A DNA stretch of 32,589 nt from Brachyspira sp. G79 (GTDB taxonomy: Bacteria; Spirochaetota; Brachyspiria; Brachyspirales; Brachyspiraceae), in NCBI RefSeq assembly GCF_002379365.1, contig NZ_JQIU01000008.1, positions 1,438,662 to 1,471,250 on the forward strand, in the 5' to 3' direction. Of this stretch, positions 5,964 to 13,039 are shown one piece after another (positions within the stretch are counted from its first letter, which is position 1; every line of letters starts with the position of its first letter). Below the pieces are notes generated by a model. The model was not told the DNA's origin, made no database searches, and saw nothing but the letters and a program-made list of their open reading frames with translations. The position numbers and the translations under genes were made by a program.

Positions 5964-7364
5964 TTATTTATTAGACAAATATTTATGTATTCCAGAAGCA
6001 GCTCTTTTGCCGTCACCAATAGCGAGAATAACTGTTGCAGCTCCTCTTGCAGCGTCTCCTCCTGCAAATACACCTTCCATAGAAGTAGCACCAGTCTCTT
6101 CATCAATAACATAAGTACCTTTTTTAGTAGTTTGTAATTCTGGTACTTTTCTAGCTATAAGAGGGTTAGGAGTAGTTCCTATAGCAATAATAACTGCATC
6201 AACTTCTATATCTTCTGTCTGACCTTCAACAGCAACAGGTTTTCTTCTGCCGTCAGCATCAGGCTCACCAAGCTCCATTACTTGTGTTCTTATAGCTGTA
6301 ACATTATCATTTTCATCTGCCAGAATTTCCAAAGGAGCTCTTAAAAATCTAAAATCCACTCCCTCTTCCATAGCATGATGTACTTCCTCTACTCTTGCTG
6401 GAAGTTCTTTTTGAGTTCTTCTATAAACTATATATACTTTTTCAGCACCTAATCTTACAGCAGTTCTGCAAGCGTCCATAGCCACGTTACCGCCGCCTAA
6501 TACAGCAACTTTTTTATGTCTTATAACAGGAGTGTCTACTTCTGGGAATTTATAAGCACCCATTAAGTTAACACGTGTTAAATATTCATTAGCAGAATAT
6601 ACTCCGCAGAAATTTTCACCAGGTATATTTAAGAAAGCAGGAAGCCCTGCACCTGTTCCCAAAAATATAGCATCATATTCTTTTCTTAATTCATTAAAAT
6701 CTAAAGACACACCTGCAACTTCATTTATTTTAAAATTAACCCCATCTTTTTTAAGGTTTTCTACTTCATGAGCCACCAATTCTTTTGGTAAACGAAACTC
6801 TGGAATACCATACATCAATACTCCGCCTATTGTATGTAAGGCTTCTAATACAGTTACATCATATCCTAGTTTAATTAAGTCTCCCGCACAAGCTAATCCT
6901 GCAGGACCAGCACCCACAATACATACTTTTTTACCATTTTTTTCTACTTTCAAATCTTCATGCTGAGCATGTTTTCTCTCATAGTCAGCAACAAACATTT
7001 CCAATTTACCTATAGCTACAGGTTCAAATTTTTTACCTACAACACATCTTTCTTCACATTGAGTTTCCTGAGGACATACTCTTCCGCAGGCTGCTGGTAA
7101 AGCATTTGTTTCTTTAATTTTTTTAGCAGCTTCTAAAAATTTTTTTTCAGCAACAAGTCCTATAAACTCAGGTATCTTTACTTTAGCAGGACAACCTTCC
7201 ATACAATGAGGTACTTTGCAGTCTAAACATCTCAAAGCCTCTGTATAAGCCTGTTCTTCAGTATATCCTGTAGGAACTTCTTTAAAGTCCTTTCTTCTCT
7301 CTTCAGGACTTCTAGTAGGCATTTCTTGTCTAGGTATTTCACCTAATTTTGATCTTGGGGGCAT
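5964..7364 (-). CDS. gltA: NADPH-dependent glutamate synthase, GltA/small-subunit type
   Basis: 466 residues, full length for the homotetrameric GltA/GltD-like family. The N-terminal Fe-S region has Cys46, 49, 54 and 58 (CLDC...CMEGC) and a second set at Cys93, 97, 103 and 107. The FAD-binding motif VGAGPAG is at 150-156. The NAD(P)H motif VLGGGNVAMDACR is near 288-300, followed by VYRRTQKELPAR. The FAD-closing GGDAARGAATV block is near the C-terminus. Such proteins transfer electrons between NADPH and a partner, classically to make glutamate from 2-oxoglutarate and glutamine. No large glutaminase subunit and no NfnA partner is nearby, so the physiological partner is uncertain. It is monocistronic, with AGGAG 6 nt before the ATG. 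Confidence 0.85.
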   Translation of the reverse strand: MPPRSKLGEIPRQEMPTRSPEERRKDFKEVPTGYTEEQAYTEALRCLDCKVPHCMEGCPAKVKIPEFIGLVAEKKFLEAAKKIKETNALPAACGRVCPQETQCEERCVVGKKFEPVAIGKLEMFVADYERKHAQHEDLKVEKNGKKVCIVGAGPAGLACAGDLIKLGYDVTVLEALHTIGGVLMYGIPEFRLPKELVAHEVENLKKDGVNFKINEVAGVSLDFNELRKEYDAIFLGTGAGLPAFLNIPGENFCGVYSANEYLTRVNLMGAYKFPEVDTPVIRHKKVAVLGGGNVAMDACRTAVRLGAEKVYIVYRRTQKELPARVEEVHHAMEEGVDFRFLRAPLEILADENDNVTAIRTQVMELGEPDADGRRKPVAVEGQTEDIEVDAVIIAIGTTPNPLIARKVPELQTTKKGTYVIDEETGATSMEGVFAGGDAARGAATVILAIGDGKRAASGIHKYLSNK

Positions 7365-7502: not shown

Positions 7503-7531
7503 TTGACTAGAATAATTTTTTATAATATAAT
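7503..7531 (+). promoter_or_regulatory. rpmB-ispH promoter
   Basis: TTGACT (7503-7508), 17-nt spacer, TATAAT (7526-7531), 43 nt upstream of the rpmB ATG. Confidence 0.75.
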
Positions 7532-7790: not shown

Positions 7791-9539
7791 ATGAACGTAG
7801 ATATAGGTAAATTCGCTGGTTTCTGTGATGGTGTAAAATATGCAGTTGAAAATACTTTTTCTCAGGCTGCTAAAAATAATAATGATGATATATATATTGA
7901 CGGACATTTAATACATAATCCTCAGACTCTTGATATGCTTGAAAACATAGGTGTAAAAACATATGAAGATGATGAGGATATGTCTGTTTTAAATAATAAA
8001 ACCGTTATAGTAAGAGCTCATGGTATATCTCCTAAAAGACGCGAAGCTCTATCTAGCCATGCAAAAAAAATAGTTAATCTTACTTGCAAATATGTTGCTA
8101 AAATTCAAAGTCTTGTAAAAAAACATAGTTCTCTCGGATACAGAATTATAGTAATAGGAAATCCTAAACACCCTGAAATAATTGGGGTATGCGGATATGC
8201 CGATGATGTATATGTTGTATATAAAGATGAAGATTTAAATAATTTACCTAACGATGCAAAAAAAACTCTTATAGCAGCTCAAACAACTCTGCAGAAGTCT
8301 GTATTCGATAAATATGTAAATAAAATAAAAGAAAAATACCCTAATACAGAAATTATAATCAAAAATACTATATGCGAAGCTACAGAACAAAGACAAAATG
8401 AAGTATTAGAAATAGCTAAAAGAAATGATGCTGTACTTGTTATAGGCGGGTCTGAAAGCTCGAATACTAGAAATTTATATAATATAGCATCGTCTATAAA
8501 GCCTGCATTTTATGTTGAGTACAAAGAAGATTTAGAAAAAATAGATTTATCAAAATACAAAAATATTGGTATAATGGCTGGAGCTTCTACTCCAGACTGG
8601 CTCATAGAAGATGTAGCTCAGACTATAAAAGATAAATATGCCAGTTCTTTTACAAGATTTGTTTCTAGAATATTTGATTTTCTAAATTACGGATATATAT
8701 TCTTTTCTGTAGGTGCTTTTTTAATGTCATATGCTATATATGATATATTATCACAGCCATTTCAGTATAGAATAGGCATAATAATAGCTGCTTATTATCT
8801 ATATATGAGTTTGGGAAACGGATATAGCAATTATACAATAAAAATAAGTGATAAAAGAAGATATTTATTCTATCAAAAAAATAAATTCTTTTTTATGACA
8901 CTTATAACTGTAAGTGCATTGTCAATGTTTTATTTTGCCTACAAAGTAGATATCGGCATACTAATGCTTACAATACTTTCAAGCCTTTTAGGTATAGGAT
9001 ATAATATAAGTTTTGAAAACAAATCAAGATTTGAAACATCCATATTTTTTAAACTATTTAAAAAACTTATACCATTTAAAGCCATAGTAATATCAGTTGC
9101 TGTTACAATACTTTTGAATGGCTCTATATTTATAATGCATAGAAATATAATAAAAGAAAAACCTTTTTTATATATATTTTCTACAAGCATAGTATTTTTA
9201 TTTATGTTTATAAGACAGGCATTAATAGAAATAAAATTCTCTCAAAGTGATAAAATAGCAGGTGCTGTAACTTTAACTACATATATAGATTCAAGTAAAT
9301 TAGCTATTATAACTAGAATAATACCAATTGTACTTATATTATTTATGATTATTAGTATTCTTATAGGAAAGTTTCCATTGGAATTGAATAAATTAAAATA
9401 TTTTATACCGATTATATACAGCAGCATTATATCTTTTATTGTAATGAAGAAGAAGATTATAACAAGCAGACATTTATTTTCTATATTAATAGATTCTCCG
9501 CTTTATGTATTATTTTTAGCGGCATTAATCAACATTTAA
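7791..9539 (+). CDS. ispH: IspH (HMBPP reductase) fused to a UbiA-like membrane domain
   Basis: 582 residues, against about 280-320 for ordinary IspH. Residues 1-284 are IspH, the last MEP-pathway enzyme, which reduces HMBPP to IPP and DMAPP using a 4Fe-4S cluster. The cluster ligands are Cys12, Cys99 and Cys195. HN at 42-43, RAHG (His77), HPE (127-129), QTTL (164-167), SxN (223-225) and AGAS (263-266) are all present. The usual DATCP reads LTCK here. Residues ~295-582 form a chain of hydrophobic helices (about eight) whose order and loop motifs resemble UbiA prenyltransferases: NGYSNYTIK (343-351) in place of NDxxDxxxD, YNISF (404-408), and a second loop ending SDKIAGAVTL (486-495). The key Asp residues of both loops are mostly replaced. 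No Shine-Dalgarno is visible. The IspH call is firm; the UbiA relation is by eye. Confidence 0.9.
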   Translation: MNVDIGKFAGFCDGVKYAVENTFSQAAKNNNDDIYIDGHLIHNPQTLDMLENIGVKTYEDDEDMSVLNNKTVIVRAHGISPKRREALSSHAKKIVNLTCKYVAKIQSLVKKHSSLGYRIIVIGNPKHPEIIGVCGYADDVYVVYKDEDLNNLPNDAKKTLIAAQTTLQKSVFDKYVNKIKEKYPNTEIIIKNTICEATEQRQNEVLEIAKRNDAVLVIGGSESSNTRNLYNIASSIKPAFYVEYKEDLEKIDLSKYKNIGIMAGASTPDWLIEDVAQTIKDKYASSFTRFVSRIFDFLNYGYIFFSVGAFLMSYAIYDILSQPFQYRIGIIIAAYYLYMSLGNGYSNYTIKISDKRRYLFYQKNKFFFMTLITVSALSMFYFAYKVDIGILMLTILSSLLGIGYNISFENKSRFETSIFFKLFKKLIPFKAIVISVAVTILLNGSIFIMHRNIIKEKPFLYIFSTSIVFLFMFIRQALIEIKFSQSDKIAGAVTLTTYIDSSKLAIITRIIPIVLILFMIISILIGKFPLELNKLKYFIPIIYSSIISFIVMKKKIITSRHLFSILIDSPLYVLFLAALINI

Positions 9540-11336: not shown

Positions 11337-13013
11337 TTATCTCTTCTTAACATACTTCTTAATAAATCTGCTTATTATCATTATAAATCCCATAATAGCA
11401 GAAAGTCCAAAACCTATCATACCTATAACTGAAGTACCATGAAATAAAGGCGGCATCTTGCTTGTTATAATCAAAGCACTAGCCATTATTAAGGAGGCTA
11501 AAACTATAGAGTAGCTAAGTCTATCAGCCAAACCATCTAATGTAGTTGATAATGATTCCAAGTTTTTATGCTCAAGCTGAATTTTCATACTGCCTTTTTT
11601 CATCACTGAAACTAAATCACTGAAATCAGCAGGTAATTGCTTTAATATATGAGAATAATCAGTTATTAATTTTTTTAATTGTTTTAATATATTATCAGGT
11701 TTTATCTGTTCTTTAACATATCTGAAAGCAAAAGGCTTTATATGTTCTATTAATTTTACATCTTTATCTAAATTCCTTGCAACTCCCTCAAGAACTATTA
11801 AAGATTTTATTAAAAGCATAATATTGCTTGGAAGAGTTAATCTAAACTCTCTTATTATTTCTATAAGTTCATTAAACACATCTTCTATATTAATATTATC
11901 CAAAGACATATCAATGTATTTATTAACCAAAACAAATATTGCCATATTAAAATCATCTATATTTTTTATATCGCTATGATAACATAAATCTAGTATTGCT
12001 TTTGATAATGCCAAATAATCAGCCGAACTTATACTCATAATCAAAGATGAAAATGCTTCTTTCGAATTTGGAGGAATAAATCCTATCATTCCAAAATCCA
12101 AAAAACATAATACATTATTCTCTAAAGCCATCAAATTACCAGGGTGAGGGTCTGCATGAAAAAATCCAAGCATGAATATCTGCTCTAATACAGCATCAAT
12201 ACCAATAGAAACAAGTTTTTTTCTGTCATACCTATCATCATCTGGTGATATATCTGATATTTTTATTCCGTCTATATATTCCATAGTAAGTATGCTTTTT
12301 GTACTGTATTCTTCATATATCTTAGCTATTTTTATGTTTTTATTATCTTTAAAATATCTTGCAAACTTAAGAGTATTATTTTTTTCAAAATTAAAATCTA
12401 GTTCCTGCAAAAGCTGAGCTTTAAAAGCTGCTATTAGTTTCTGAGGCTGCATTAAAGCAAACTCTTCATTATATTTTTCTATAATATTTGAAAGCCATAT
12501 AATAACCTCTATATCCATAAGTATATTATCTTCTATATTCGGTCTTTTTACCTTAATAGCAACTTTTTCTCCTGTTTTTAGCACAGCAGTATGTACCTGA
12601 GAAATAGATGCACTTGCTTTAGGCTTCATGTCAAATGAGGCAAATACTTCATCTATTTTTTTACCTAATTCTGTTTCTATTATATTAATAGCATCATTTT
12701 CATCAAAAGGTTTTACATGATTTTGAAGTTTGCTAAGCTCATCTGTAATATCTTTTGGAAGTATGTCATTTCTGTTTGATAGTATCTGACCAAGTTTTAC
12801 AAAAGTAGTTCCCAAATCTTCGCAGGCCATTCTTATACGCTCGCCCCTGCTGTAATTACGTAAATCAATACCTTTATATTTTATATTGATTTTATCTATT
12901 GGATTTTTTATTATTTTTAATATTGGAGTTATGGCTATAATATCTCTGAAGCCGTAAGCCATTATTATAGAAATTATCTCTCTTGCTCTATTTATAGATT
13001 TTATATTATTCAT
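11337..13013 (-). CDS. ubiB: UbiB/AarF/ABC1 family atypical kinase
   Basis: About 558 residues. The start at 13013 is preferred over 13019 because AGGA is then 7 nt upstream rather than 1. Family marks (counted from the 13019 ATG): the KxGQ helix FVKLGQILS (residues 73-81), the Ala-rich loop ASISQVH (137-143), the VAIKVKRP lysine (156), HADPHPGN (288-295) and DFG (308-310). The C-terminus has two transmembrane helices near 498-518 and 527-550. UbiB proteins are ADCK-like ATPases or kinases that support isoprenoid-quinone or other lipid metabolism at membranes; the substrate in this organism is unknown. It follows a phasin-like gene across an 85-nt gap that holds a terminator-like hairpin. Family confidence is high. 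Confidence 0.88.
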   Translation of the reverse strand: MNNIKSINRAREIISIIMAYGFRDIIAITPILKIIKNPIDKINIKYKGIDLRNYSRGERIRMACEDLGTTFVKLGQILSNRNDILPKDITDELSKLQNHVKPFDENDAINIIETELGKKIDEVFASFDMKPKASASISQVHTAVLKTGEKVAIKVKRPNIEDNILMDIEVIIWLSNIIEKYNEEFALMQPQKLIAAFKAQLLQELDFNFEKNNTLKFARYFKDNKNIKIAKIYEEYSTKSILTMEYIDGIKISDISPDDDRYDRKKLVSIGIDAVLEQIFMLGFFHADPHPGNLMALENNVLCFLDFGMIGFIPPNSKEAFSSLIMSISSADYLALSKAILDLCYHSDIKNIDDFNMAIFVLVNKYIDMSLDNINIEDVFNELIEIIREFRLTLPSNIMLLIKSLIVLEGVARNLDKDVKLIEHIKPFAFRYVKEQIKPDNILKQLKKLITDYSHILKQLPADFSDLVSVMKKGSMKIQLEHKNLESLSTTLDGLADRLSYSIVLASLIMASALIITSKMPPLFHGTSVIGMIGFGLSAIMGFIMIISRFIKKYVKKR

Positions 13014-13039
13014 TTTCATTTCCTATTTTTATATAAAAA

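Follow-up and report, generated by a model that had tools for sequence, protein, structure and literature searches.

IspH is the final enzyme of the isoprenoid-precursor (MEP) pathway; it is essential, serves as a drug target, and is usually regarded as soluble. The closest described counterparts of the protein considered here are fusions of IspH with a UbiA-type domain. Rao et al. (2015; PMC4746011) reported 47 of them, "all in sulfate-reducing bacteria", and noted two DXXXD motifs. Membrane localisation and a local supply of IPP and DMAPP, the channelling idea, were proposed for them, although expression of the full-length fusion failed (Rao et al., 2015; PMC4746011). Fusions of IspH with RPS1, described in the same work, likewise consist of IspH and a C-terminal partner and likewise come from anaerobes; their partner is made of ribosomal protein S1 repeats, whereas the partner found in Brachyspira is a membrane domain. 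A functional analogy only is offered by the complex of UBIAD1 and HMG-CoA reductase, in which a UbiA-fold protein is likewise attached to an isoprenoid-pathway enzyme at the membrane; there, however, the two are separate proteins, the pathway is the eukaryotic mevalonate route, and UBIAD1 is catalytically competent. The initial annotation of the DNA analysed here stated that no fusion of this kind had been described, which has to be withdrawn, as IspH-UbiA was published in 2015. The terms 'Brachyspira' and 'spirochaet' are absent from the main text of that paper (PMC4746011), and no paper linking UbiA or IspH with Brachyspira was found in a search of the main texts of mostly open-access papers. 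The spirochaete set of fusions, widespread, conserved, and catalytically degraded, appears to be new; what is added to the 2015 description is the distribution in spirochaetes, the degeneration, the persistence of the domain in a genus that otherwise lacks UbiA, and a single case in which the domain was cleanly lost.

The window, a stretch of 32,589 nucleotides of the Brachyspira sp. G79 genome, contains the IspH-UbiA fusion as a single open frame of 582 aa (7791-9539, + strand). It shares with the "Rosetta stone" fusions of sulfate reducers (PT_UbiA_5) the IspH N-terminus, the nine-helix UbiA-like C-terminus, the arrangement in one chain, and an anaerobic host. Compared by published description, the sulfate-reducer fusions carry two DXXXD motifs, whereas those of spirochaetes are degenerate; moreover, sulfate reducers have separate UbiA/MenA proteins, whereas Brachyspira has no other UbiA. 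The IspH (LytB) domain comprises residues 1-284 (7791..8642, +). It matches PF02401 (LYTB) at full length (residues 7-280, profile positions 5-267 of 267, E=1.3e-80) and can be aligned over its whole length with IspH of Aquifex (3dnf, 2.5e-50). The cluster ligands C12 (7824..7826, +), C99 (8085..8087, +), and C195 (8373..8375, +) are invariant in 50 aligned fusions, and the active-site residues H42, H127-x-E129, S223/N225, and S266 lie inside conserved blocks. A complete IspH with all three cluster cysteines, as originally annotated, is therefore confirmed, and this half is intact and presumably active. A genome search showed that the fusion is the sole IspH of Brachyspira sp. G79.

The remaining part of the chain, residues 285-582 (8643..9536, +; stop 9537-9539), displays eight clear hydrophobic peaks and a weaker one at about 325-343, and from hydropathy and charge it is predicted to form nine helices in the UbiA topology. 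If the IspH side is taken as inside, the first Asp motif, the Y404 loop, and the second Asp motif fall in three inside loops; in the same hydropathy and charge analysis, the inside loops hold more Lys/Arg overall than the outside loops and are net positive. When the membrane domain of the window was searched alone, nothing convincing was obtained in Pfam, NCBIfam, or PDB, and there was no PF01040 match. Among its relatives, PF01040 matches, all below the cut-off, were obtained for 6 of the 12 members of the first family alignment (best 4.7e-6), one fusion (G171) passes the curated PF01040 cut-off (38.9 vs 34.2 bits), and the PDB matches of note are UbiA enzymes, with weak E-values. When a profile built from 41 fused domains was compared with an intact UbiA, L114, the two matched across 273 columns (hhalign, 98.8%, E=1.3e-16); L114 is a stand-alone protein that matches PF01040 (1.6e-22) and the DGGGPS-type enzyme MjDGGGPS (6m31, 7.5e-10). 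Because the family profile matches L114, the UbiA homology of the membrane half can be considered secure, through relatives only. The genome from which L114 comes has an estimated contamination of 6%; for the comparison with L114 as a homologue this is of no consequence. Against ten more distant stand-alone UbiA-type proteins of spirochaetes, the fused-domain profile gave no significant match (E about 0.2). AlphaFold2, supplied with an alignment of near-identical Brachyspira rows only, returned a pLDDT of 45 for the C-terminal domain and 53 for the full protein, values too low for either model to be relied on. No other membrane family matches convincingly; TraP, considered as the identity of the domain, reached E=0.0076, below the family cut-off. 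The proposal that the approximately 290 residues following IspH form a multi-helix UbiA-like membrane domain thus held, both in the predicted nine-helix topology and in the profile match. As a side observation, two adjoining UbiA-like genes, of which the second is broken across two frames, are present at L114:193-1965; the contig belongs to a spirochaete bin and may be foreign.

The mapping of fused domains onto UbiA sites was taken from the L114 profile alignment, in which motif 1 (N/D/D) of L114 reads NRFTDIRED and motif 2 (D/D/D) reads FDIRDVIGDKIEG. L114, whose gene adjoins that of a predicted geranylgeranyl reductase, retains the acidic residues of both Asp motifs, whereas the fused domains have no intact motifs. 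The degenerate first motif of the Brachyspira protein, NGYSNYTIK (N343-K351, 8817..8843, +), keeps the initial N, has N347 opposite the +4 Asp, and has K351 in the place of the +8 Asp. In the second, R475...E480..F483...D487...G491..TL495 (9213..9275, +), R475, D487, and G491 are invariant, and E480 aligns with D(-7), F483 with D(-4), and D487 with D(0). The positions first given for the motifs (343-351, and ...QSDKIAGAVTL ending at 495) were found to be exact, and the profile alignment to an intact UbiA showed their by-eye mapping to be right. Neither the NDxxDxxxD nor the DxxxD signature of UbiA is present, and the active-site tyrosine is: Y404 (9000..9002, +), which corresponds to the near-universal UbiA tyrosine (AfUbiA Y139; for its role see PMC4106721), is conserved in 49 of 50 fusions. 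A further conserved residue, K430 (9078..9080, +), follows the 4-5 loop; Lys occupies this position in 47 of the 50 and in intact L114 too.

Across 41 diverse fusions, N343, Y404, K430, R475, D487, and G491 are near-universal, D487 being kept in all 41 and an acidic residue at -7 in 38. The +8 Asp of motif 1 is present in none of them, and the -4 Asp, the first of the motif 2 DxxxD, is gone in 39 and kept in two. The Brachyspirales-type clade comprises nine sequences, including that of genome G040, which groups with the others in the C-terminal tree (support 99). Position +4 is Asn in all nine, the R22-equivalent is Tyr or Asp, not basic, again in all nine, -7 is Glu in eight, and the +6 Lys is kept in three only. 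Of the remaining 32 lineages, 22 carry D/E at +4, 30 have a basic R22-equivalent, and 28 retain Lys/Arg at +6. Judged from these alignments, the degeneration is two-tiered: +8 and -4 were lost in all or nearly all fusions, and the Brachyspirales-type clade has in addition lost +4 together with equivalents of the diphosphate-binding Arg and Lys. The earlier statement that most metal-binding Asp are replaced is borne out as regards the loss, but it is too simple, as N343, D487, and the acidic -7 (Glu in Brachyspira) are kept.

The consequences for catalysis can be considered in the light of characterised UbiA enzymes. In AfUbiA, the substitutions R22A, N68A, D72A, and K146A each abolish GPP binding, and in E. 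coli MenA the equivalents of N68, D72, D198, and D202 are essential (PMC4106721). Alanine mutants in the Asp motifs of MjDGGGPS lose activity and keep GGPP binding, and the mutant at the +4 position is strongly impaired (PMC9385802). Human UBIAD1 is active without the +8 Asp (motif N102TYYDFSKG; PMC9314443) and a solved chlorophyll synthase, found among the PDB matches, has a sequence without the -4 Asp; the +8 and -4 losses alone are therefore no proof of inactivity. The D-to-N change at +4 is the stronger evidence of inactivity in Brachyspira, where the membrane half has probably lost catalysis. The initial description of a probably inactive fold is thus favoured by the Asn at +4 in 9/9 Brachyspirales-type sequences, but it could not be based on the +8 and -4 losses. 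Loss of ligand binding is not certain, because the MjDGGGPS Asp mutants still bind GGPP.

We consider it an even bet that the C-terminal half is a pseudo-prenyltransferase domain which tethers an intact IspH to the membrane, the fusion being inherited within Spirochaetota. According to this model, a working prenyltransferase, whose nearest intact relative is of the digeranylgeranylglyceryl phosphate synthase type, would have been fused to IspH within Spirochaetota; the metal and diphosphate ligands of the fused UbiA domain have been lost stepwise. In Brachyspira, the domain would no longer transfer prenyl groups and would serve as a tether or scaffold: the UbiA fold would anchor IspH at the cytoplasmic face of the membrane, and this placement would bring IPP/DMAPP production to the membrane, the site of undecaprenyl diphosphate synthesis and use. 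Other spirochaetes keep most of the diphosphate ligands, and in them the domain may still be able to bind a prenyl diphosphate or even to use it as a substrate. The changes in Brachyspirales weigh for an inactive tether, because the equivalents of R22, D72, and K146 are residues whose mutation abolishes GPP binding by AfUbiA. However, the conserved polar residues of the membrane half (N343, Y404, K430, R475, E480, D487, and D568) speak against a plain anchor and suggest that the domain binds a ligand or retains some chemistry.

That the C-terminal domain is still an active, non-canonical prenyltransferase that uses elongated IspH products is a possibility that we regard as unlikely. The reduced acidic site would consist of N343, E480, and D487 in Brachyspira and of N, D/E at +4, D-7, and D0 in other spirochaetes. 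The invariance of R475 and D487, the acidic -7, and the +4, +6, and R22-equivalent residues retained by most of the other 32 lineages agree with it, as do the chlorophyll synthase without the -4 Asp and active UBIAD1 without the +8 Asp (PMC9314443). It is difficult to reconcile with the +4 Asn of all nine Brachyspirales sequences, as the corresponding mutant of EcMenA is dead (PMC4106721) and that of MjDGGGPS strongly impaired (PMC9385802). More doubtful is the proposal that the domain is a built-in sensor, binding a prenyl (di)phosphate and adjusting the activity or stability of IspH in the way UBIAD1 does for HMG-CoA reductase. It draws on the finding that UBIAD1 is a GGPP sensor that interacts with the key mevalonate-route enzyme (PMC9314443), and on the MjDGGGPS Asp-motif mutants, in which binding outlasts activity (PMC9385802); on the other hand, the equivalents of three AfUbiA residues needed for GPP binding are changed in Brachyspirales (PMC4106721). 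Its extended form is slightly more doubtful again: a membrane sensor or regulator, derived from a prenyltransferase by lost catalysis, would couple the last MEP step to the prenyl phosphate level and make the fusion a one-chain bacterial counterpart of UBIAD1-HMG-CoA reductase.

The survey of IspH architectures that had been suggested showed the fusion in all 26 genomes of the genus Brachyspira and in two of the sister family. A second genus was represented by two genomes, of which one has the fusion and the other, G028, does not; the single genome of a third genus has it. The full-length frame is kept at 49-98% identity within the family and 38-39% in the sister family, a conservation far beyond chance. 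A search of genome contigs returned matches from Brachyspira only. In the phylum, the C-terminal profile matches 69 of 393 sampled Spirochaetota genomes; after removal of four fragmentary matches and of two that are weak and lack IspH (G073, G365), an intact one-frame fusion of 554-662 aa is present in 63 of the 393, from ten families. PF02401 occurs in 316 of the 393 genomes, and hence IspH without the membrane domain is the commoner form in spirochaetes. Separate genes for the two parts occur in no relative. It could be argued that the fusion arose from an error of annotation or assembly, or that the membrane half is a passenger domain in decay, and the loss of the domain in one relative, described below, might be taken in its favour; the probability of this is negligible, as the fusion is intact in independent genomes and in named isolates (B. 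innocens, with 97% protein identity, B. hampsonii, and B. catarrhinii) and dN/dS is low. A local artefact is ruled out by the conservation of the fusion.

The IspH tree comprises 62 rows, and one clade (SH-aLRT 87) unites 40 fused rows with the unfused row of genome G028, a topology that fits a single fusion event followed by later loss. The fused row L107, from genome G201, is a long branch of unsure placement and could be a second origin of the fusion. The two halves co-diverge: their pairwise distances correlate with r=0.91, against a maximum of 0.29 in 1000 shuffles. Within Brachyspira, dN/dS (Nei-Gojobori) over 294 pairs, which are not independent, has a median of 0.11 in the membrane half and of 0.08 in IspH, and one pair shows zero non-synonymous changes at a dS of 0.23. 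Purifying selection acts on the membrane half almost as strongly as on IspH, and therefore the membrane domain is functional; the strength of this selection is also in line with a sensor. In G028, a close relative with a genome of 1.8 Mb, IspH stands alone (L036:5459-6388): the frame ends directly after IspH, the next gene overlaps the end of ispH, no remnant of the domain was found downstream, and the C-terminal profile has no match elsewhere in the genome. G028 is a natural case in which the UbiA-type domain was cleanly lost. As G028 lost the domain and keeps IspH, IspH does not need it for catalysis, at least in this lineage, and that G028 manages without it weighs against the sensor. In a large group of spirochaetes including Brachyspira, the only IspH is made as a predicted membrane protein. 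Stepwise decay of the UbiA metal site, continued strong selection, and one domain-free relative make a natural series, which bears on the role of a UbiA fold after prenyl transfer is lost and on why isoprenoid-precursor enzymes become membrane-attached.

The metabolic setting of the fusion differs between lineages. In Brachyspiraceae genomes, no other UbiA was found above the family cut-off, and some are present in fusion-bearing relatives; there is one PF00348 polyprenyl synthase vs two in compared relatives, and one UppS as well as IspG. The fused domain is retained even where the usual pathways that employ UbiA appear to be absent. A role as a quinone prenyltransferase in Brachyspira was considered and judged unlikely, because there is no other UbiA and a single PF00348 synthase; the same lack of a second polyprenyl synthase and of any other UbiA weakens the case for an active prenyltransferase. 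The residue losses of the Brachyspirales-type are common to G029, G030, and G040, all of which retain stand-alone UbiAs, and so these losses predate the loss of the other UbiA enzymes. An ABC1/UbiB-type atypical kinase (11337-13019, - strand; PF03109, 4e-73), of a family usually linked to quinone biosynthesis, is encoded in the window, in a genome with no stand-alone UbiA; its gene stays near ispH in the compared Brachyspira loci.

The neighbours that do support an active prenyltransferase belong to two genomes. In G201, whose fusion is more divergent, the fusion gene is separated by 46 bp from a polyprenyl synthase gene upstream of it (L107:1380-2342 and L107:2389-4152); in G174, a carotenoid-type cluster with phytoene synthase, polyprenyl synthase, desaturase-like, glycosyltransferase, and PF04240 genes is convergent with ispH-UbiA (L101:490-6304). 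These are the only fusions with Asp at -4, and their neighbours are suggestive (n=2) of an ancestral prenyl-related role. At 27 other spirochaete loci, the fusion gene closes a run of type II secretion genes made up of gspK, gspL/pilM, a gspM-like gene, and one unassigned gene (L033:197-8696 and 26 similar). These surroundings bear on the idea that the domain docks the electron donor of IspH, through membrane-linked reduction of ferredoxin or flavodoxin, and does not serve a lipid. Known fusions were indeed reported from anaerobes (PMC4746011), but no electron-transfer partner is conserved beside the gene across lineages, rpmB being upstream in Brachyspira and the type II secretion run in many others, and the pyridine-nucleotide/4Fe-4S oxidoreductase at 5964-7364 of the window is on the strand opposite to ispH and found in Brachyspira only, which makes such docking very improbable.

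In the window, the rpmB gene for ribosomal protein L28 (7575..7766, +; PF00830, 1.2e-19) ends 24 nt upstream of ispH, and rpmB is upstream of ispH in the sister-family genome G029 too. A promoter-like site precedes rpmB at 7503-7531, although such sites were no commoner in the scan than in shuffled sequences. The adjacency of rpmB and ispH is a ribosomal link that recalls the IspH-RPS1 fusions, possibly by coincidence.
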